DNA of 49,605 nt from Gammaproteobacteria bacterium. Its GTDB lineage: Bacteria; Pseudomonadota; Gammaproteobacteria; Pseudomonadales; Azotimanducaceae. The stretch spans positions 1 to 49,605 of the forward strand of contig JAPOYV010000034.1 in assembly GCA_026706385.1 (NCBI GenBank), in the 5' to 3' direction. Below the pieces are notes generated by a model, which had not been told where the DNA came from, searched no databases, and saw only the letters and a program-made list of their open reading frames with translations. The first letter of the stretch is position 1. The number at the start of each line of letters is the position of its first letter. Of the stretch, positions 193 through 33,635 are shown piece by piece. Position numbers and translations under genes: made by a program.

Positions 193-1359
193 ATGACCGA
201 TACACCCATGGACATGCCCCAGGACAAGAGCTCCTCGACATCGGGGAAGCTCCCGGTCCCGCCTGATCACGGCGAGGCACTCGCCCGACTTCGCGACGAA
301 AATGCTCGATTGCGCGCCGAGTTGGCGCAATTGCGGGCGTTCCAGGGCGCACCGTCCCGCGACAGTGGATGGGAGACGGCAATGGACCACGGCATCGGCT
401 ACGCCGACGGACACTCGCCCACCAGCGCGCTGTCCGCGGGCCGGCTGCTACGGCAACTGACCGGGTTGACGAAGGAGCGCCTGAAGGCGGGAGCGATCCG
501 CGACAGCAGCGACTTCGAGTACCTGCCGAGGCCCAGCGCTGACGAGGCGAAGCTCGAGGCCGACTTCGTGCGCTGGGGCTACTGCCTCGTCGAGGACGCC
601 ATGTCGCCGAGCCAGATCCGCGACCAGGTGGATCGGATGACCGAGCAGGCTGCCGCGGAGCGGGACCTCGGTGTGGCCATCATGACCAGCCGCAGCGACG
701 CCGCGCAGCTCGTCAACAACCTCGTCCTCAAAGGCGCCGTGTTCCGCGATGCGGTGGAGTTCAAGGCTTCGGCCGCCCAGCGGGGCCCGCTGGTGGATCG
801 CCTGCTGACCAAGATCATGGGTGAGGGTTTCGGACTCGGATGTGCACACGGGTCCATCGTGCACACAGGCGGTGGCCTGCAGGATCTGCACGTCGACCAA
901 GGCGGCATGCCGCTGCCGTATCCGCCGTTCCCTTTCGGTTCGCTCATCATCTGGTGCTATACCGAGTTCAACCTAGCCAACGGTGGCACCTACGTCGTGC
1001 CGGGCTCGCACCGCACTGCCGAAGGCCGCACGAGTTTCCACGACGGCGCCGACCTTCTCGCGTTGGTCGACGGCGAGCCGGGTTTGGTGGCCATCTGCGC
1101 ACCGCCCGGGACTTGCATCCTCACCGACACCCGAGTACTGCACGGCGGCGGCCGACGCACCGCGCCCGGCACCCGCTACGCCATGCGCTGCCACTACAAC
1201 CGTCACTACATCCGCGCCTTGCACGAGCAGTCGACCGCCAATCTGCACGTTCCCGACGACGTCTACGAACTGCTGTCCCCGCGCCTCAAGCAGATGATGG
1301 GCATTACCGTCAACAACCACGAGCCGGTTGGCGAACTTTCCCTCGCGAGCGCCCCATAG
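193..1359 (+). CDS. Phytanoyl-CoA dioxygenase (PhyH) family protein with N-terminal coiled coil
   Basis: A 388-aa protein of the PhyH Fe(II)/2-oxoglutarate oxygenase family. The iron triad is visible as H233-x-D235 (in LHVDQGG) and H317 (in LHGGGRR); the following arginines could bind 2-oxoglutarate. Residues about 27-60 form a leucine-rich heptad stretch (ARLRDENARLRAELAQL) that predicts a short coiled coil. This is not part of the usual fold and suggests oligomerisation. The substrate is unknown; family members hydroxylate acyl-CoAs or small metabolites. The flavin oxidoreductase at 1426 follows in the same direction after 66 bp, so the two may work together. The ATG at 193 has only a weak ribosome site; further in-frame ATGs lie 5 and 7 codons downstream. 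Family call is firm, function open. Confidence 0.85.
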   Translation: MTDTPMDMPQDKSSSTSGKLPVPPDHGEALARLRDENARLRAELAQLRAFQGAPSRDSGWETAMDHGIGYADGHSPTSALSAGRLLRQLTGLTKERLKAGAIRDSSDFEYLPRPSADEAKLEADFVRWGYCLVEDAMSPSQIRDQVDRMTEQAAAERDLGVAIMTSRSDAAQLVNNLVLKGAVFRDAVEFKASAAQRGPLVDRLLTKIMGEGFGLGCAHGSIVHTGGGLQDLHVDQGGMPLPYPPFPFGSLIIWCYTEFNLANGGTYVVPGSHRTAEGRTSFHDGADLLALVDGEPGLVAICAPPGTCILTDTRVLHGGGRRTAPGTRYAMRCHYNRHYIRALHEQSTANLHVPDDVYELLSPRLKQMMGITVNNHEPVGELSLASAP

Positions 1360-1425
1360 CCCCTCGCGCTCCCGGCCGGGGGCTCTCCGCCGCGCAGGGC
1401 TGATTCGAACAACCAAGGAAAACGC

Positions 1426-2334
1426 ATGACCCGGCAACTTCCCGCACTCAGCCTAGCGGCCGTCCCCGGCCGCCGCCGCGCAACGCTCGACCTCGCCCGC
1501 GAGATCGAGACGCGCGGCTTTCCGGGTATCTATTGCCCGAGCCTGGGCGACGGGCTGTCGCTCTGTGCGGCACTCGCCATGGTCACCGAACGCGTCCGCT
1601 TCGGCACCAGCATCCAACCCATCTACACGCGTCACGTGCAGGACTTCGCACAGGCGGCGAGCTTCATCCACGAGGCCTCGGACGGGCGTTTCGACTTCGG
1701 CATCGGCGTCAGTCACGGCCCGGCGATGGACCGCCTAGGGGTCGCGACCGGCAAGCCGCTTAGCGACATCCGCCGCTTCGTCGCCGATCTCCAGGCCGTG
1801 CCACGCGCCGGCGAACTGCCCCGGCTGGTGCTGGCGACCCTGCGCACGAGGATGATCCGCCTGGCGGCTGAGATCGCCGGCGGGATGGTCTTCGCCAATG
1901 GTGCGCGCTCGCACATGGGAGCCTCGCTCCGCGTCCTCGACCCGGCAAGCCTTTCGGACGACGGTTTCTTCATCGGCAACATGATCCCGACGGTCGTCTG
2001 CGATGACGTCGAAGCGGCCAAGGCGCGCAATCGGCGCACTTTGACCAGCTACGCGATGCTGCCCAACTACCGGGCGTACTGGAAGGAAGCCGGCTACGAG
2101 GAGGAGATGGCGGCCGTGGAGGCAGCGATGGATGCCAAGGCGTTCGACCGGATCCCGGCTTGCCTCTCCGACCGTTGGCTCGCCGACACGACCTTGTTCG
2201 GCCCGCCGTCCGCCGTGCGCGAAGGCATCGAGGCCTGGTACGACGCCGGCATCAAGACCCCCATCATCGTGCCGTCATCTGCCAGCGGCGGACAGTTCGA
2301 CGCCTTTGCCGAGTTCTTCGCGATCTGGGACTGA
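1426..2334 (+). CDS. LLM-class (luciferase-like) flavin-dependent oxidoreductase
   Basis: A 302-aa TIM-barrel protein of the bacterial luciferase-like (F420/FMN) family. The N-terminal half has the family pattern: an early beta strand, then GFPGIYCPSLGD, VTERVRFGTSIQPIYTRH, and the DGRFDFGIGVSHG segment. The C-terminal ITVPSS-like strand (IIVPSSASGG) closes the barrel. The start ATG has a good AAGGAAA ribosome site. Such enzymes oxidise or reduce small organic substrates with FMN or F420; which cofactor is used cannot be told here. It lies between the PhyH-type oxygenase and the phosphatase gene at 2341 (6-bp gap), so a short oxidative operon is plausible. Confidence 0.85.
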   Translation: MTRQLPALSLAAVPGRRRATLDLAREIETRGFPGIYCPSLGDGLSLCAALAMVTERVRFGTSIQPIYTRHVQDFAQAASFIHEASDGRFDFGIGVSHGPAMDRLGVATGKPLSDIRRFVADLQAVPRAGELPRLVLATLRTRMIRLAAEIAGGMVFANGARSHMGASLRVLDPASLSDDGFFIGNMIPTVVCDDVEAAKARNRRTLTSYAMLPNYRAYWKEAGYEEEMAAVEAAMDAKAFDRIPACLSDRWLADTTLFGPPSAVREGIEAWYDAGIKTPIIVPSSASGGQFDAFAEFFAIWD

Positions 2335-23883: not shown

Positions 23884-24380
23884 GGCCCGCCTCCGGGCTG
23901 ACTCGCCGGGCCTCTCGTCCAAGTCCCGGACTTGCCCCCGGACTTGGCGACGAGGCCCACGTTCTCAACGACCATGCCTCGGTCCAACGCCTTGCACATG
24001 TCGTAGACGGTCAGCGCGGCGACGGCCGCCGCGGTCAACGCCTCCATCTCGACGCCCGTGGGTCCGGCCACCTTGCAAACCGCCTCGATGGCCAATCCGT
24101 CGTCGCCGTCAGCCCGGAACTCGACGCCGACCTTGGTCAATGCGAGGGGATGACACAGCGGGATCAGCTCGCTGGTTCGCTTGGCGGCTTGGATGCCGGC
24201 CACGCGAGCGACGGCTAGCACGTCGCCCTTGGCGACGCCGTCGGAGAAAATGGCCGCGAGCGTGCCCTTCGCCATGCGCACGACAGCCCGGGCGCGCGCT
24301 TCTCGCGCCGTTGCTGCCTTGCCGGAGACGTCGACCATCGACGCCTCGCCGCGGGCGTTGAGATGGGTCAGCCGCGTCAT
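23880..24380 (-). CDS. moaC: Cyclic pyranopterin monophosphate synthase MoaC
   Basis: A 166-aa MoaC, which with MoaA converts GTP to cyclic pyranopterin monophosphate. The conserved [14 protein letters not shown] and [23 protein letters not shown] are present, with the catalytic lysine in VAKSGGKSG near the C-terminus. The ATG at 24380 gives [19 protein letters not shown], the standard beginning. The same frame remains open far upstream across mnmA, but that is antisense and not coding. It is divergent from mnmA (27 bp between starts). Confidence 0.95.
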
Positions 24381-24407
24381 ACGCCGAGCATAGCACGCTA
24401 TAATTCG

Positions 24408-25499
24408 ATGTCGGTTCTCCAAGCGACTGATCCGGTGGCAGATTCCGTGATGGTGGGCATGTCCGGCGGCGTCGATTCCGCGGTGAGCGCGCTCATCCTC
24501 TTGGAGCGCGGCTACGACGTCGCCGGGTTGTTCATGAAGAACTGGGACGAGGACGACGGGACCGAGTACTGCACCGCCGAGGCCGATCATGCGGACGCCG
24601 CCGACGTCTGCGAACGCCTCGGGATCCCGTTGCATGCCGCCAACTTCTCCGCCGAGTACTGGGACAATGTCTTCGAGGCATTCCTGGCCGACTACCGGGC
24701 CGCCAGGACGCCGAATCCGGACGTCCTGTGCAACCGGGAGATCAAGTTCAAGCAGTTCGCCGACTACGCGGCCCTGCTCGGCTACGAACGCATTGCCACC
24801 GGCCACTACGCCCGGCGGACACCGCCGGGCGAACCCTTCCGACTCTACAAGGGGAGCGACCCGGGCAAGGACCAAACCTACTTCCTGCAGGCGGTTCCGA
24901 GAACCGACCTCGAGGGTTGCCTGTTCCCGATCGGCGAGATGACCAAATCCGCAGTCCGCGCCCGGGCGCTGCATGCCGGTCTTCGCGTCCACGACAAGAA
25001 GGACAGCACCGGCATCTGCTTCATCGGCGAACGCCGTTTCGAGGACTTCCTGTCCCGCTACGTTGCCGACCAACCGGGCGCGATCGTCGATCCGGCCGGT
25101 ACGGTGCTGGGCGAACACCGCGGCCTCGCCTTCTATACGCTCGGCCAGCGTCAGGGTTTGCGCGTGGGCGGACTCAAGGGCCGGCCGGAGAAGCCGTGGT
25201 ACGTGGTCGGCAAGGACCCAGCCGCCAATCGCCTCGTCGTCTCGCAGTGTGCGAGCGACCTTGAGACCCTCAACCTCCGCGCATCGCAGTTGAACTGGAT
25301 CGGAGCGCCACGCGAAGGGCGCTTCATGGCCAAGACGCGCTATCGGCAACCGGACCAGGCCTGCGTGATGATGCTCGACGGCGATTGCGCCGAGGTCGTC
25401 TTCGATTGCCCACAGCGCGCAGTGACACCCGGCCAGCACGTGGCCTTCTACGACGGCGACGAGTGCCTTGGCGGCGGACGCATCGAGGCGGCTTGGTAG
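24408..25499 (+). CDS. mnmA: tRNA-specific 2-thiouridylase MnmA
   Basis: A 363-aa enzyme that makes 2-thiouridine at U34 of Lys, Glu and Gln tRNAs. The PP-loop is [19 protein letters not shown] near residue 18. The catalytic cysteines are in [13 protein letters not shown] and [18 protein letters not shown]. The ATG at 24408 directly precedes the family sequence; upstream sequence in this frame overlaps moaC and lacks family similarity. It is followed by purB after 5 bp. In Pseudomonas mnmA also lies between icd and purB, so the position is conserved. Confidence 0.96.
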
Positions 25500-25504
25500 A
25501 TTCC

Positions 25505-27325
25505 ATGGCAACGGTGCAAGACGACCTGTCCCCGCTGACCGCGATCTCGCCGATCGACGGACGGTATCGATCGCGCGCATCGGCGTTGGCGCCGATCGTC
25601 TCCGAGTACGGGCTGATGCGCTATCGCGTACGCGTCGAGGTGGCTTGGTTCATCCACCTGGCCGCGTGCCCGGGGGTCGCCGGGCTACCGACTCTGAATC
25701 CCCGTCAGCGCTTGGCGGTCGACGCCATCGCCGCCGAGTTCGACGTCGCCGATGCCGCGGCCATCCGCGACCTGGAGGCGGAGACCAATCACGACGTGAA
25801 AGCGGTCGAGTACTTCGTCAAGGGTCGGTTGGCACGCATCGACGGCCTGCAACGCCATCTCGAGTACGTGCACTTCGGATGCACCTCCGAGGACATCAAC
25901 AACCTCGCCTACGCCCTGATGCTGCGCGACGCCCGCGACACGGTGCTCGTGCCGGCCATGGCCGGTCTGGGCGACACGCTGCGCCGACTCGCCAGGACGT
26001 TGGCCGAGGTGCCCATGTTGTCGCGAACCCACGGCCAGCCGGCCTCCCCCACCACCGTCGGCAAGGAGCTGGCCAACTTCGTCGCGCGCTTCGACCGCCA
26101 ACTCGCGCAGGTTCGCAACACCGCCATTCTCGGCAAGATGAACGGCGCGGTCGGCAACTACAACGCCCACGCTGTCGCGTATCCGGATGTGGACTGGCCT
26201 GCCGAGAGCCGCAAGTTCCTAGAGGACTTGGGGCTCGCGATGAACCCGTACACAACCCAGATCGAGCCGCACGACTACGTGGCCGAGCTGTTCCACGCCG
26301 TGTCGCGTTTCAACCAGGTGCTGCTCGATTTCGACCGCGACATCTGGGGCTACGTCGCGCTCGGCTACTTCCGGCAGCGCAAGGTCGAGGGCGAAACCGG
26401 TAGTTCGACCATGCCGCACAAGGTCAACCCTATCGATTTCGAGAACTCGGAAGGCAACGTTGGGCTCGCCAACGCGCTCCTGGGCCACCTTGCCGACAAG
26501 CTACCGGTGTCGCGTTGGCAGCGCGACCTGTCCGACTCGACGGCGCTGCGCAACGTCGGCACGGCCCTGGGCCACTGCCTGGTCGCCTATTCCAGCGCAT
26601 CGCGGGGCTTGGGCAAGTTGGCCGTCGATCACGACAAACTGGACAGTGACCTCGACGACGCCTGGGAGGTCTTGGCCGAGGCGGTGCAGACCCTGATGCG
26701 CGCCAACGGGAGCCCCGAACCCTACGAACAGTTGAAGCGGCTCACGCGGGGGGAGCGGCTTGACGAAGCGGTCTACCGTAGCCTGCTCGACCAACTCGAC
26801 CTCGACGACGCGTCCCGCGAACGCTTGGCGCGCCTGCGGCCCCGAGACTACCTCGGCCATGCCGCCGCATTGGCCAGGGAGGTGGCTTCGGTCCCGGCAG
26901 GTCCGCGGGTCTACGAGGTCGCCTGGCAGACCCACGGCGCCGCGCTCAAGGCCTTGCGCCGCACGGTGTTCGTCGAGGAACAGGGCGTCCCGGAAGCCGA
27001 GGAGTGGGACGGCCAGGACGACGCAAGCCGGCATTTCATCGCCGAGGACGGCACCGGCGCGGCCGTTGGCACGGCCCGCCTGATGCCGTCCGGGCAGATC
27101 GGGCGAATGGCCGTATTGAAGCCGCTGCGCGGCATGGGCATCGGAGCCCGGCTGCTGGCCGCTGCCGTCGATGCCGCCCGCCAAGACGGGTACGAGCGCA
27201 TCTTCCTCCACGCGCAAACCCAAGCCGCAGGCTTCTACGAACGCGCGGGTTTCCGGCCCGCCGGTGAGACGTTCATGGAAGCCGGAATCGAGCATCGCCC
27301 CATGGAGCTCGGCCCGGACAGCTAG
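25505..27325 (+). CDS. purB: Adenylosuccinate lyase fused to a GNAT acetyltransferase
   Basis: A 606-aa two-domain protein with no stop codon between the parts. Residues 1 to about 458 are a complete Pur[11 protein letters not shown] at the start, the catalytic-His region [16 protein letters not shown], and the signature [20 protein letters not shown] with the catalytic serine loop. PurB acts twice in purine synthesis (SAICAR to AICAR; adenylosuccinate to AMP). Residues about 468-600 are a GNAT fold: [20 protein letters not shown], the acetyl-CoA loop [19 protein letters not shown], then [17 protein letters not shown]. coli PurB ends at 456 aa, so the GNAT is an added domain. An in-frame GTG at 26882 follows AGGGA with almost no spacing; separate translation of the GNAT cannot be ruled out. 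The acceptor substrate is unknown. Confidence 0.93.
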
Positions 27326-27386: not shown

Positions 27387-27415
27387 TTGCGCCCCCTCCC
27401 GACTATCTATATGGT
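27387..27415 (+). promoter_or_regulatory. Possible sigma-70-like promoter of aceA
   Basis: TTGCGC (27387-27392) and TATGGT (27410-27415) are separated by 17 bp, about 30 bp before the aceA start. Matches to consensus are 3/6 and 4/6, so this is a suggestion only. It is the only AT-rich stretch in the 122-bp gap. Confidence 0.3.
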
Positions 27416-27447
27416 TGCGCACTTTTTTTGCCACGGAGAACCGAAAG

Positions 27448-28755
27448 ATGGCCTTGCACTACGTGCCAAGAAAGCCACGCGCGGAACAGATCAGGGAACT
27501 CGAAGAGGAATGGGAATCCAACCCGCGCTGGTCGAGCGTCAAACGCGGCTACACGGCCGCGGATGTCGTCAACCTCCGCGGCACGATTCCGCACCGCAGC
27601 ATGCTCGCCGCCCACGGCGCCGACAAGCTCTGGGACCTACTGCAGGGTGACGACTTCGTGAACTGCCTGGGCGCCGTCACCGGTGGACAGGCCGTGCAGC
27701 AGGTCAAGGCAGGCATCAAGGCCATCTACCTCTCCGGCTGGCAGGTCGCCGCGGACAACAACACCTCCGAGACCATGTATCCGGACCAGTCGCTCTACGC
27801 GGTCAACTCCGTTCCGAGCGTCGTCAACCGGATCAACAACGCGTTCCGGCGTGCCGACGAGATCCAGTGGGCCACCGGCGTCGACGACGGCATCGATTTC
27901 TACGCGCCGATCGTCGCGGATGCCGAAGCCGGCTTTGGCGGACTGCTCAACGCCTTCGAACTGATGAAGGCGATGATCGGCGCGGGCGCCGCCGGTGTGC
28001 ACTTCGAAGACCAATTGGCATCAGTGAAGAAGTGCGGCCACATGGGCGGGAAGGTCCTCGTGCCGACGGTCGAAGCCGTGCAGAAGCTCATCGCCGCACG
28101 GTTGGCCGCGGACGTCTGCGACGTGCCGACCGTGCTGATGGCGCGCACCGACGCCAACGCCGCCGATATGGTCACCAGCGACATCGACGAATGGGACAAG
28201 CCGTTCCTCACCGGCGAGCGCACGCCCGAAGGCTTCTACCGGACGCGCAACGGTCTGCCGCAGGCAATTTCCCGCGGCCTCGCCTACGCGCCCTACGCGG
28301 ACCTCATCTGGTGCGAGACGGCCGTGCCCGACCTCGACGAGGCGCAAGCGTTCGCCGATGCGATCCATGCGCACTACCCCGACCAGATGCTGGCCTACAA
28401 CTGCTCGCCTTCGTTCAACTGGAAGGCGAACCTGGACGACGCGACGATCGCCAAGTTCCAGCGTGAGCTGGCGGCCATGGGCTACAAGTTCCAGTTCATC
28501 ACCTTGGCCGGCATCCACAGCATGTGGTTCAACATGTACGACTTGAGCCGCGACTACGTGAATCGGCAGATGTCGGCCTACGTGGATCTCCAGGAGAAGG
28601 AGTTCGCCGCAACCAACGCGGGCTACTCGTTCGTCAGCCACCAGCAGGAGGTCGGTACCGGCTACTTCGACCGGGTGGCGGAAGTGATCCAGGGCGGCCA
28701 GTCGTCGGTCACGGCGCTGACCGGCTCCACCGAGGAAGCGCAGTTCGCAAGCTAG
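27448..28755 (+). CDS. aceA: Isocitrate lyase
   Basis: A 435-aa glyoxylate-shunt enzyme that splits isocitrate to glyoxylate and succinate. The catalytic [14 protein letters not shown], with the active-site cysteine, is near residue 195. [16 protein letters not shown], the [16 protein letters not shown] loop and [14 protein letters not shown] complete the family pattern. Length matches the E. coli-type (about 434 aa) and is clearly different from the 300-aa PrpB in the same window. The ATG at 27448 has CGGAGA ten bases upstream. A malate synthase gene is not present here. A 26-bp sequence at its 3' end is repeated downstream. Confidence 0.96.
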
Positions 28756-28805
28756 AACCGCGTCCGCAGTTCGCAAGCTAGACCGCGTCGGCAGTTCGCG
28801 AATCG
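28740..28805 (+). repeat. Short tandem repeat duplicating the end of aceA
   Basis: GCAGTTCGCAAGCTAGA begins at 28740 and again at 28766; the units are 26 and 25 bp. A third, partial copy (GCAGTTCGC) begins at 28791. The first copy contains the last codons and stop of aceA; the second would encode the same ending. This looks like a slipped duplication of the gene's end and not a control element. Confidence 0.8.
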
Positions 28806-28812
28806 ATGTGTT

Positions 28813-28836
28813 GGGCGGCGGCTTCCGGCGCCGCCC
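28813..28836. terminator. GC-rich terminator hairpin between aceA and the DUF4199 gene
   Basis: GGGCGGCG (28813-28820) and CGCCGCCC (28829-28836) form a perfect 8-bp GC stem with an 8-base loop. It lies between converging genes, directly beside the stop of the membrane protein gene. There is no T-run, but stem strength and position suit a shared transcript end. Confidence 0.5.
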
Positions 28837-28837
28837 T

Positions 28838-29317
28838 TCACCGGCCTTGGCGTTTGAAGATGCCGACCACCGCGCCGGCGACCGCGCTGGTGATGATCGC
28901 GCCCATGGCACCAGAGAACGCGGAACCGGCCGGCGTCGTGTTCTCGACGGCCGCCATCTGGGCGGCCACCTGGTCATCAGGCAGGCCTGCGACCGTCAGC
29001 GTTTCCCGCATGGCCGCTGCGTATTCGGCGTAGTACTCGGGGAACACCCAGGTGGTCATCGTCCACGAACCCGCGAAGATCAGGACCGCCCCGATCGCGC
29101 CGACGATGAGCGCGTTGACGACTTGCCCCATCCAGGTCGCATCCGCAGCCGTTTGCCTGAGCGCCAGAAAGACGCAGACGACATTGACGACCACGGCCGC
29201 CGCAACGAATACGGTGGGCATGATCGGATTGGTGTGCAGACCGGCGATCGGCACGACGTAGCCCAATGCGGCGACCACGATGCCGAGGATCAGTCCAAAC
29301 CTGACGGGTGGATTCAT
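28838..29317 (-). CDS. DUF4199-like inner-membrane protein
   Basis: A 159-aa protein with four hydrophobic segments (about residues 7-25, 33-53, 66-90, and 133-152) and an amphipathic region between the third and fourth (EYYAEYAAAMRETLTVAGLPDDQVAAQMAAVE). The layout fits the DUF4199 group: two helices, one helix with an aromatic loop, and a last helix ending in a basic cytoplasmic tail (GIFKRQGR). No function is known. It stands alone between aceA and prpD. Confidence 0.65.
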   Translation of the reverse strand: MNPPVRFGLILGIVVAALGYVVPIAGLHTNPIMPTVFVAAAVVVNVVCVFLALRQTAADATWMGQVVNALIVGAIGAVLIFAGSWTMTTWVFPEYYAEYAAAMRETLTVAGLPDDQVAAQMAAVENTTPAGSAFSGAMGAIITSAVAGAVVGIFKRQGR

Positions 29318-29387
29318 CTTTCAACCTGCGGATGTACTACTGCGTAGAAGACTATGGCGGTGCGAAGGAGCCGCTGCAAGCCATCCG

Positions 29388-30833
29388 TCAGATCGCGAGC
29401 AGAGCCATGAAATCGTCCACGGGCGTACCCTCGAAGCGCTCCCTGTCCAAGCACAGGTCGCAAATGGCGCGCGCCCGCGCGGCCGGAAATCGCGTCGCGA
29501 GGTTGCGCTCGAACTTCTCGATCAGCCGCGGGATGCCCTCGCCGCGGCGGCGGCGGTGGCCGATCGGATATTCCACGGCGACTTTGTCGGTGCTCGTGCC
29601 GTCGGTGAAGAACACCTGCACGGCGTTGGCGATGCTGCGCTTTTCGGGTTCGTGGTATTCGCGGCTGTAGCGCTCATCCTCCTCGACCTGCATGCGCTCG
29701 CGAAGCTGATCGATGCGCGGATTCCGCGCCGCCGCGTCCTCGTAGTCGTCCGCCGTCAGGTCGCCGTTCAAGAGGCCGACGGCGACCATGTACTGCAGGC
29801 AGTGGTCGCGGTCGGCCGGGTTGTTGAGATCCCCGGTCTTGCTGATGATGCGGATGGCGGACTCGTGAGTCGTCAGCACGATCCGCTCGATGTCGTCGAG
29901 CCGCCCGGATACGGCCGGGTGCAGTTCCACCGCCGCCTCGACCGCCGTCTGCGCGTGGAACTCGGCCGGGAACGAGATCTTGAACAGTACGTTCTCCATG
30001 ACGTACGACCCGTAGGGACGCTGGAACGCGAAGCGATTGCCCTTGAAGGCAACGTCGTAGAACCCCCAGGTCGGCGCGGATAGCGCGCTCGGATAGCCGA
30101 TCTCGCCCTTGAGGACCAACAGCGCCAGGCGCACGGCGCGGCTCGTGGCATCGCCAGCGGCCCACGATTTGCGCGGACCCGCATTGGGGGCATGGCGGTA
30201 CGTGCGCAACGCCGAACCGTCGATGAACGCGTGCGAAAGCGCATCGACGACCTGGTCGCGGCTGCCGCCGAGGAGCCTGGTCACGACGGCCGTTGACGCC
30301 ACGCGCACCAGCAGGACATGGTCGAGGCCCACGCGGTTGAAGCTGTTCTCGAGGGCGAGGCCGCCCTGGATCTCATGCGCCTGGATCATGCCCTTGAGTA
30401 CGTCTCGCATGACATAGGGCTCGCGGTTCGACCCCACGGCCCGGCGGCTCACGTAGTCGGAGACAGCCAGGATGCCACCAAGGTTGTCCGAAGGATGACC
30501 CCATTCCGCCGCCAGCCACGTGTCGTTGAAGTCCAGCCAGCGGATGATGCAGCCGATGTCCCAGGCCGCCTTCACGGGATCGAGTTCTAGCTGCGTTCCC
30601 GGGACGCGTGCCCCGCCCGGCAAGACAGCACCCGGTACGATCGGCCCCAGGTGTTTTGCGCATTCGGGGAAGCGCAGCGCCAGGAAGCCGCAGCCGAGCG
30701 TGTCCATCAGGCAGTAGCGGGCCGTATCGTAGGCTTCCTCGCTGTCGATCGCGCCGTTCGCGACGTAGTCCGCGATGGCCACGAGTTCGTCGTCCGGCGG
30801 CGGCCGGACATTGACGTCTACATTTGCGCTCAC
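29388..30833 (-). CDS. prpD: 2-Methylcitrate dehydratase PrpD
   Basis: A 481-aa MmgE/PrpD family protein that dehydrates 2-methylcitrate to 2-methylaconitate in the methylcitrate cycle. Family marks are [21 protein letters not shown] near the N-terminus, [60 protein letters not shown] and the [17 protein letters not shown] segment. Length equals that of E. coli PrpD (483 aa). The GTG at 30833 follows the prpC stop by four bases. The frame continues upstream through prpC but that part is not coding. The organism thus uses PrpD and not the AcnD/PrpF pair seen in some relatives. Confidence 0.93.
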
Positions 30834-30837
30834 CGCC

Positions 30838-31962
30838 TTAACGGTCCGCCAGCGCGACGAACGGCCGCGGCTCCTCGCCAACGTAGTCCGCACTCGGGCG
30901 AATGATGCGGTTGTTGACGCGCTGCTCCATGACGTGCGCGGTCCAGCCGGACACCCGGGAGCAGACGAAAATCGGCGTGAAGAGCTTCGTCGGGATGCCC
31001 ATGAAGTGGTAGGCGGACGCATGGAAGAAGTCGGCGTTGGCGAACAGCTCCTTCTCGTCCCACATGACCGCCTCGACGGCACAGGAAACGGGGTAGAGGA
31101 GCTCGTCGCCGACCTCGCCCGCCAGTCGTTCGGCCCAGCCCTTGATGATCGTGTTGCGCGGGTCGGAGGTCCTGTAGATGGCATGCCCGAAGCCCATGAT
31201 GACTTCCTTGCGCTCAAGCATCCCGCGAACGGCCTCGGCGGCCGCCTCGGTGGAATCGAACTGCTCGATGAGGGCCATCGCCGCTTCATTGGCGCCGCCG
31301 TGCAACGGGCCACGCAGCGAGCCGATCGCGCCCGTCACGCAGGAGTGCATATCCGACAAGGTGGACGCACAGACGCGGGCCGTGAACGTGGACGCGTTGA
31401 ACTCGTGCTCCGCGTAGAGGATCAGCGAGGTGTCCATGACCCGCCGGAAGAGATCGCTTGGCGACTGACCCTTGAGCGTCGCCAGGAAGTGTCCGGCGAT
31501 CGAGTCTTCGCCCGTGTCCGTATCGACACGCACGCCGTCGTGGCTGAAGCGGTACCAGTAGTTGATGATCGACGGCAGCGCACCCAGCAGCCGATCAGCC
31601 ACCGCCTGCTGATTGTCGAAATCGCCCTCCGGTTCCAGGTTGCCGAGCATGGAGCAGCCGGTGCGCATGACATCCATGGGATGGGCGCTCGCCGGGATGC
31701 GTTCCAGCACCTCGCGCAACGGCGCGGGCAAGGCGCGCAGTCCCTTGAGCCTGGACGTGTAGGCGGCCAGCTCGTCAGCGTTCGGCAGCTCGCCATGGAA
31801 AATCAGGTAGGCCACCTCCTCGAACGAAGCGCCGGCGGCAAGGTCCGAGATGTCGTAGCCTCGGTAGGTCAGCCCGGTGCCGGTCTTGCCGACGGTGCAC
31901 AGCGCTGTTTGGCCGGCACTTTGGCCGCGCAGTCCCGCGCCTCCCAGTTTCTTGTCAACCAC
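30838..31962 (-). CDS. prpC: 2-Methylcitrate synthase PrpC
   Basis: A 374-aa citrate synthase family enzyme that condenses propionyl-CoA with oxaloacetate. The family sequence [31 protein letters not shown], the catalytic histidine regions [15 protein letters not shown] and [13 protein letters not shown], and the aspartate region [15 protein letters not shown] are present. The short length and RG(Y/F)DI start distinguish it from hexameric TCA citrate synthases of about 430 aa. It begins with GTG after a GGAGGAG ribosome site. It sits between prpB and prpD in an operon. Confidence 0.93.
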
Positions 31963-31992
31963 AGTCTCCTCCTCACTTCCCCATCGATTCGC

Positions 31993-32889
31993 TTAAGCGT
32001 CGCGCGCGCCAGCGTCCTCTGCGTTGGCCGCGAACAGGCGGTCAAGCTTCTCCTCGTAGTCGCGATAGCGCAGAAAGTCGTAGAGTTCGTCGCGCGTCTG
32101 CATCGTGTCGACCACCCGGGCTTGCGTTCCATCGCCACGGATCGCGCGATAGACGTTCAGGGCCGCCAAGCTCATGGCCCGGAAGGCCGACAACGGATAA
32201 AGAGCCATCCTAACACCCACGCTCCTGAGCTCGTCGACGGTGTAAAGCGGCGTCCGCCCGAACTCCGTCAAGTTGGCGAGCACCGGGACATCGACCGCTG
32301 CCGTGACCCGGGCGTACATGGCGAGTTCGGTCATGGCTTCCGCGAAGATCGCATCGGCGCCCGCTTCCTCGAAGCGCGCGGCACGTTCGATCACCGCATC
32401 GAGTCCTTCGACGGCCAATGCGTCCGTGCGTGCCATGACCACGAATGCGCCATCGGTCTTGGCATCGGTCGCCGCCTTGATGCGGTCGCACATCTCTTCG
32501 GTCGGGACGATCGCCTTGTTGGGCCGGTGGCCGCAGCGTTTCGCGGCCACCTGGTCCTCTATGTGCACGGCGGCCGCACCGGCGCGGGTCATCTCCCGGA
32601 CGGTGCGGGCGATGTTGAGCGCGCCTCCCCAACCGGTATCTATGTCCACAAGGAGAGGCAAGTCCGTCGTCGCCGTGATGCGCCGAACGTCCTCGAGGAC
32701 TTCGTTCAGCGAGGTCATGCCGAGGTCCGGGAGCCCGTAGGAGCCGTAGGCCACGCCGCCACCGCTCAGGTACAGGGCACGGTAGCCGACGCTAGCGGCC
32801 ATCAAGGCCGCGTAGGCGTTGATGGCGCCGACGATCTGCAACGGGTCTTCTTCGGTCCAAGCTTCTCGAAATCGTCCGCCCGGTGTCAT
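31993..32889 (-). CDS. prpB: 2-Methylisocitrate lyase PrpB
   Basis: A 298-aa isocitrate lyase superfamily enzyme that splits 2-methylisocitrate to pyruvate and succinate. The active-site loop is [13 protein letters not shown], the PrpB form of the motif (isocitrate lyase has KKCGHMGGK). [33 protein letters not shown] and [18 protein letters not shown] complete the match. The ATG at 32889 is preferred to the one at 32895 because GGAG then lies six bases upstream. It is the first gene of prpB-prpC-prpD; no prpR or prpE is adjacent. Confidence 0.94.
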
Positions 32890-32924
32890 GCGCATCTCCT
32901 ATCAGCCATCGACCACGCCGCCTC

Positions 32925-33512
32925 CTAGGACAACGCCGTCTGCAACTCGGCGTAGCCGGTCACCGACGTGATCTCCGGGTGCGCGGCCAGCACCCCGGCC
33001 GGTGCATTGAAGAATACGCCGAGGTCGGCTTCCTCGAGCATGCCGAGGTCGTTGAACGAGTCGCCCGCAGCCAGCACGCGATAGTTCATGCCGTGGAAGG
33101 CGCGGACCGCCTGGCGCTTGGGATCGGCCTGCCGCAGCCGGTAGTCCACGATGCGCTGGTCCTCCACGACCAAGCGATGGCACAGCAGCACCGGGTACCC
33201 CAGTTTCGCCATCAGCGGCATCGCGAAGTCGTAGAAGGTGTCCGACAGAACCACGACCTGGAAGCGCTCCCGTGCCCACGCCATGAAGTCCACGGCCCCC
33301 GGCAACGGCTCGAGATCCGCGATCACCCCCTGGATGGTTGGCAGACGGAGGTCGTGGCGCGCCAGCACCGTCAAGCGCATGCGCATCAACTCGTCGTAGA
33401 CCGGGATGTCGCGGGTAGTCTTGTTCAGCGCGTCGATGCCGGTGTCTCGTGCCACCGCCCGCCAGATCTCCGGGACCAGGACGCCTTCCAGATCGAGACA
33501 CAGGATGTCCAA
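32925..33512 (-). CDS. thrH: Phosphoserine phosphatase/homoserine phosphotransferase ThrH
   Basis: A 195-aa haloacid dehalogenase family enzyme like Pseudomonas ThrH, which can dephosphorylate phosphoserine and transfer phosphate to homoserine. The nucleophile motif is DLEGVLVPEIW, which has the unusual E instead of D in the second acid position, as in ThrH. Motif II is VVLSDTFYDFAMPL, and motif IV is VLAAGDSFNDLGML. TTRDIPVYDELM is also typical. The TTG at 33512 has GGAG eight bases upstream and starts at the family's first residue. It lies 35 bp before prpB on the same strand. Confidence 0.92.
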   Translation of the reverse strand: MDILCLDLEGVLVPEIWRAVARDTGIDALNKTTRDIPVYDELMRMRLTVLARHDLRLPTIQGVIADLEPLPGAVDFMAWARERFQVVVLSDTFYDFAMPLMAKLGYPVLLCHRLVVEDQRIVDYRLRQADPKRQAVRAFHGMNYRVLAAGDSFNDLGMLEEADLGVFFNAPAGVLAAHPEITSVTGYAELQTALS

Positions 33513-33635
33513 ATACCGCGCTCCGGGCGACAAAAAGTCGGCTAGTGTACTTCGCATGGTGAGCGCCGTCACAGCGAGCCCCACGTGGGCGAGCACGCTC
33601 CGCTTAGGACGCCGCCGGATGGCCAACATTACGTT

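Follow-up and report, generated by a model that had tools for sequence, protein, structure and literature searches.

A purB gene joined in frame to a GNAT acetyltransferase domain in a few uncultured Pseudomonadales

The adenylosuccinate lyases of the PurB family are homotetramers. Among the acetyltransferases of the GNAT type, SACOL1063, reportedly the subject of a 2017 paper by Majorek, and YjcF of B. subtilis are the nearest counterparts of the domain described here, and we know of no curated model for the group of proteins like these two. Moreover, PA2631 is a putative orthologue of this GNAT. In the accessible part of a computational study of hypothetical proteins (PMC10119676) PA2631 is named, and N-acetylation of free amino acids is reported, in the available portion of PMC10267138, for the SACOL1063-like enzyme Hpa2Ab of A. 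baumannii and for a homologue. The joining of a GNAT with a metabolic enzyme has a described precedent in MadA (YiiD), in which a GNAT is combined with a malonyl-ACP decarboxylase of the hot dog type; this protein is found nearly always in gammaproteobacteria, and its GNAT likewise has 5JQ4 as its closest solved structure (the available text of PMC8666670).

In this work we consider a window, that is the whole analysed stretch of 49,605 nucleotides of contig JAPOYV010000034.1 (assembly GCA_026706385.1, family Azotimanducaceae), in which a PurB and a GNAT share one reading frame. The E. coli/Pseudomonas-type PurB (PRK09285; PDB 2ptr, 3gzh, 7t29) is covered by a family model of 456 positions, whereas the chain encoded here has the same full-length fold and continues into a GNAT domain; the solved chains of SACOL1063 and YjcF (PDB 5jph, 1q2y) comprise 140-146 residues and no PurB, whereas here the GNAT is C-terminal to PurB. 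Compared with MadA, both the partner enzyme and the domain order are different, and the YiiD_C hot dog domain (PF09500) is absent from the window's genome. In agreement with the original prediction, which did not recognize the fusion as a described enzyme, no description of a PurB-GNAT fusion was found among the papers listed when the open-licence literature was searched for such a fusion and for acetylation of PurB, and the main text, as available, of a survey of metabolic gene fusions (PMC4921024) has none of the terms adenylosuccinate, purB, acetyltransferase or purine.

The fused gene and its two halves

The gene translates into 606 residues with a single terminal stop (Table 1), so that the original prediction of one uninterrupted chain in which PurB and GNAT are both complete is confirmed by translation, Pfam and NCBIfam. 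In the first half, Pfam places Lyase_1 at residues 19-317 and ASL_C at 336-450, both above their gathering cut-offs, and the cut-offs of both PurB equivalogs of NCBIfam are passed, that of PRK09285 purB with 689.6 bits against 446 and that of TIGR00928 with 366.9 against 326.2; the match of PRK09285 covers residues 7-460, so the PurB extent expected earlier, to about residue 458, was right. In the second half, four GNAT models lie above their gathering cut-offs within residues 492-602, with PF13673 at 67.6 bits (cut-off 23.6) and PF00583 at 60.9 bits (cut-off 20.7), and a fifth, PF13444 (484-533), is just under its own cut-off.

Table 1. Position of the fused gene, its parts and its neighbours in the window
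Feature	Position	Strand	Description
fused purB-GNAT gene	25505..27325	+	606 aa plus stop; Pfam, NCBIfam, recurrence in relatives
PurB part, residues 1-462	25505..26890	+	complete adenylosuccinate lyase
junction, residues 463-467	26891..26905	+	about 5 residues, from the end of the last PurB helix (453-462) to the start of the first GNAT strand (468-472) in the model
GNAT domain, residues 468-606	26906..27322	+	predicted SACOL1063/YjcF-like acetyltransferase fold
in-frame GTG, residue 460	26882..26884	+	proposed internal start; not supported
mnmA-type frame (tRNA_Me_trans domains)	24363..25499	+	ends 5 bp upstream of the purB start
aceA-type frame (isocitrate lyase family)	27415..28755	+	from TTG 89 bp after the fusion stop

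Compared with E. coli PurB, the catalytic histidine H176 (E. coli H171 by a constant alignment offset and the titles of PDB entries) and the ten-residue signature loop at 300-309 are conserved, and H176, S300, S301, H305, K306 and N308 are identical in all 14 fused proteins that we describe below. The AlphaFold2 model of the whole chain, computed from a 56-row alignment of the window and related loci, reaches a mean pLDDT of 90.6 and a pTM of 0.82. With this model Foldseek returns the PurB of E. coli, Salmonella and P. aeruginosa as the first matches, the PurB half having 54-55% identity to E. coli PurB and a TM of 0.91-0.93 by target.

As for the GNAT, SACOL1063 and YjcF are the best matches by sequence as well as by structure. 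In a profile search they come first with 116 and 113 bits, and the domain modelled alone (pLDDT 94.5) matches the CoA-bound 5jph, the Foldseek matches being SACOL1063 with CoA, YjcF, a Lactobacillus protein, a P. aeruginosa acyltransferase (1xeb) and ElaA; the TM of SACOL1063/YjcF to the model is 0.84-0.88, with 37-38% identity to SACOL1063. Judged by these closest solved relatives, the domain is closest to the SACOL1063/YjcF type, and the R-G-M-G-I-G loop that had been noticed is present at residues 542-547, giving a predicted GNAT fold together with a putative acetyl-CoA loop. Two other GNAT groups were tried as well, namely ElaA (PRK10314), where the 42 bits fall below the equivalog cut-off of 171, and MSMEG_0567/Sll0786 GNAT (TIGR04045), with 42 bits against 68.45. 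Alignment A2 has ten invariant GNAT positions, of which V488 and P496 are variable among the fused proteins and the other eight are the same in 14/14; the acetyl-CoA loop also varies, with RRRDVG for RGMGIG in one protein (G013), and therefore GNAT activity may not be kept everywhere. The linker residues show no conservation.

Regarding the surroundings, the upstream frame, which we take to be mnmA, probably lies on the same transcript as the fused gene, and no RoxA-like gene is present between the fusion stop and the downstream aceA-type frame. In the stretch 27415-33629 of the window, genes of the glyoxylate and methylcitrate pathways seem to be clustered, for 3' of aceA the opposite strand holds frames that, from their translations, are presumably PrpD-, PrpC- and PrpB-like, together with a ThrH-like phosphatase.

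Distribution of joined and separate forms

The fusion is carried by a limited set of uncultured members of the Pseudomonadales. The architecture was sought in related genomes as the original prediction had proposed, and among the matches listed the whole chain runs without a stop in at least 14 of the 206 genomes of the window's family: in eight of the 16 genomes of the window's genus (G000, which is the window's own, G007, G013, G009, G014, G012, G005 and G015) and in six of the nine of a second genus (G053, G241, G237, G236, G235 and G239). Four of these assemblies (G012, G013, G053, G241) consist of a single contig, and locus L031, which is fused, lies on the same contig as G015 and was counted once. 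In the remaining half of the window's genus, purB and the GNAT are separate neighbours in seven genomes and one genome (G001) is too fragmented for a call; in the second genus three are split (G021, G238, G240). The join is thus not required, because these seven and three members do without it. Beyond the family the sampling was broader and thinner: in an order sample of 391 genomes, 20 of them from the window's family, the uninterrupted full-length matches among those listed are G000, G012 and G053 only, and in a class sample of 329 genomes, where G000 alone represented the family, query residues 266-606 gave only G000 among the matches listed. Four loci (L032, L036, L066, L105) looked like fusions at first and proved on inspection not to be fusions.

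The other 13 fused chains have 61-91% identity to that of the window, the upper end being the sister species G007, 91% identical over the chain. A stop or frameshift at the junction in close relatives had been named earlier as speaking against a fusion; none occurs in G007, but split genes do occur in other members of the genus. Since the junction is open in 14 genomes including G007, chance or a sequencing slip is excluded for it, and from these sequences the join is real and old and no sequencing error, which supports the prediction of a true PurB-GNAT fusion.

It had also been suggested that an in-frame GTG at 26882 could still make free GNAT. The codon exists, but its use as a start is not supported: the sole Shine-Dalgarno-like match there is a GGAG with spacing 0 to the start codon, G007 has no start codon at the matching place, and an internal GTG start for free GNAT is rejected since no internal start with a Shine-Dalgarno-like match at the junction is conserved across the 14 fused genes. 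In single genomes (G012, G015, G053, G235, G236) start codons with such matches do lie near the junction, and a cleaved product may come from the fused gene. In all six fused genes of the second genus (L010, L126, L128, L129, L130, L131) there is an in-frame ATG eight residues past the first conserved GNAT Trp, which has no Shine-Dalgarno-like match and is probably too late for a whole GNAT domain.

Origin of the join

Outside the fused group, the GNAT has a gene of its own downstream of purB, and a RoxA-like gene often stands between the two. Among 80 purB loci from sequenced contigs, which are the best-scoring 80 of at least 594 ranked by likeness to the fused query, 40 have the GNAT downstream of purB on the same strand: 26 at a distance of 1.0-1.4 kb, 4 within 60 bp or joined (the joined one being L031), and 10 elsewhere; five of the GNAT-less loci hold less than 2.9 kb behind purB. 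The gap was opened in five loci (L037, L043, L062, L064, L101), and each has one long frame with a like beginning. In the one that was scanned with Pfam, L062, the frame carries JmjC_2 and ROXA-like_wH, and we take a frame of this composition to be RoxA/YcfD-like in function. In addition, the GNATs of L043, L064 and L101, from a Marinobacter, a Bermanella and a Halieaceae record, carry a C-terminal DUF7931 (Pfam PF25559), a second fusion of the same GNAT (L043:5536-6504, L064:5600-6517, L101:5464-6354); the locus corresponds, behind purB and the RoxA-like gene, and the GNAT is homologous, but here DUF7931 follows the GNAT and PurB is not joined. No paper on DUF7931 was found in the open-licence literature.

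The simplest history would start with loss of the RoxA-like gene that stood between purB and the GNAT, after which the two would have been adjacent and then joined in one frame. JmjC_2 was not found in any of the eight fused genomes of the window's genus, and in six of its seven split genomes it lies on another contig than purB. In the second genus it occurs in fused G236 and weakly in fused G237, so that the RoxA-like gene may still be present in those two genomes, and it was not found in the four other fused or the three split ones.

The separate forms themselves differ by genus. In each of the seven split genomes of the window's genus, purB ends in a TGA that has a 4-nt overlap with an out-of-frame ATG or GTG, which would be the start of the GNAT gene, while in the second genus an ATG follows 17 nt past the stop in two of the three split genomes and G240 has a fitting ATG just before the stop. 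The separate GNAT of G006 (L017, about 1086-1486, minus strand) is matched as two segments that do not share a frame, which looks like a frameshift or an assembly fault.

To trace the order of these states, trees with 49 rows were built for PurB, for the GNAT and for both joined. In the joined tree the two genera and a long-branched split genome (G108) form one clade (100/98), and the seven split rows of the window's genus group together inside the fused ones on starred branches (98/91, 96/83). The PurB tree shows the same nesting less firmly (93/91, 92/82). In the second genus, too, the three split rows fall among fused rows, at 95/93 in the PurB tree and less firmly in the joined tree (91/76). 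When two-state models are fitted on the joined tree with the root set to split, the log-likelihood is -12.9 if change may go either way and -20.1 if only fusion may occur, the former model having one parameter more, and the same picture is obtained from the PurB tree alone and from the set without G108. Under the models that permit re-splitting, the ancestor shared by both genera was fused with a probability of 0.87-0.99. The recent loss of a stop codon considered in the original prediction does not hold up, as the architecture is common to at least 14 genomes in two genera and the models with re-splitting put the fused state at the base of both.

We therefore hold it probable that there was one old fusion, later re-split in some descendants. 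It is possible, though the less likely course of events, that adjacent genes were instead fused independently several times. For this speaks the GNAT-only tree, where the six fused rows of the second genus stand together (91/39) and apart from their three split relatives, so that no re-split is needed in that genus, and where one split row (G008) is mixed with two fused rows; moreover, linker lengths differ among the fused proteins, and a single clade of the eight fused window-genus rows is not rejected by the AU test (p 0.2). The rejection of all fused rows as one clade (p 2e-5) is predicted by both histories. Repeated fusion is opposed by the nesting of the split window-genus rows inside the fused ones in the joined tree and, less firmly, in the PurB tree, and by the fusion-only model being about 7 log-likelihood units worse.

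Proposed function of the coupled pair

The PurB half seems to be the only one of its kind in the cell. In 24 of the 25 genomes of the two genera, G001 being left out, ASL_C was found once per genome, the 14 fused genomes included; the idea that another PurB could stand in for the fused protein is rejected, for no second ASL_C match is seen in the 24 genomes. Fused G015 and G012 have additional, distant lyase-like matches at 29-30% identity, that in G015 being L120 (G015:C2:670952-672115), with 29% identity to residues 72-461. As for selection, dN/dS (NG86) in the fused state is 0.09-0.30 for PurB and 0.08-0.25 for the GNAT (nine pairs that draw on 11 of the 14 fused genomes, with genomes shared between pairs), and in the split state 0.08-0.18 and 0.08-0.20 (nine pairs from 7 of the 10 split genomes, again sharing genomes). 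Both halves thus look to be under purifying selection.

Our preferred reading, to which we give a probability of about 0.68, is that the gene makes one 606-residue covalently coupled pair, namely a working, essential PurB, a linker of about five residues, and a GNAT with its ancestral activity. The open frame would tether the acetyltransferase to PurB, as had been predicted, and a single chain would be made in which PurB bears at its C-terminus an acetyl-CoA-dependent GNAT of the SACOL1063/YjcF type. As PurB is expected to be a homotetramer, it would display four GNAT domains, 1:1 with PurB. The GNAT would keep its ancestral activity, the N-acetylation of a small amine or amino acid, a substrate class suggested by relatives as distant as SACOL1063. 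The fusion would then fix dosage and location, with no new chemistry.

It is unlikely, in our estimate, that two adjacent, coupled genes lost the stop between them by a near-neutral accident that brought no gain and left both enzymes to act as they did. Adjacent purB and GNAT pairs one stop apart are common in the window's family, split and fused states coexist in two genera, dN/dS is alike in the two states, and the linker residues are not conserved, all of which would be expected of such an accident; however, 14 fused genomes over long tree branches make neutrality less likely.

Rather improbable is a direct action in cis, in which the GNAT acetylates either PurB, perhaps close to its mobile catalytic loop, or a purine intermediate, so that purine flux senses acetyl-CoA. 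It would fit the short linker that holds both enzymes together in the model, the wide neighbourhood association of the GNAT with purB, and the fused PurB being the only ASL_C-type one. However, the GNAT does not appear dedicated to PurB, because in relatives it often lies 1.0-1.4 kb away, with a RoxA-like frame in the five gaps opened, and because it is elsewhere fused to DUF7931; furthermore, the SACOL1063-like enzyme of A. baumannii is reported to acetylate free amino acids (PMC10267138, the part available). A little less credible again is the fuller version of this idea, a bifunctional purine enzyme in which acetylation of PurB or of a purine-pathway amine lets synthesis answer acetyl-CoA. 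In this version a purB-roxA-GNAT locus would have given rise to the fusion a single time, and some descendants would later have returned to two overlapping genes with coupled translation. The link between purine flux and acetyl-CoA that was raised at the outset may exist. Finally, that an assembly or sequencing error removed a stop, as the 134 contigs of the window's assembly might suggest, can be practically dismissed, for 13 other genomes, with chains at 61-91% identity and four single-contig assemblies among them, have the same open junction, and the relatives reject it together with the recent stop loss.

To sum up, the proposed covalently coupled pair consists of two known families in an architecture for which the papers listed from the open-licence literature gave no description. 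It provides a starting point for work on an uncharacterised GNAT found close to purB in 40 of 80 loci (the best 80 of at least 594), and natural split and fused versions are available for comparison within one genus. Moreover, if the split forms descend from fused ones, these bacteria would provide a traceable case of a fused gene that was re-split into a pair overlapping by 4 nt.
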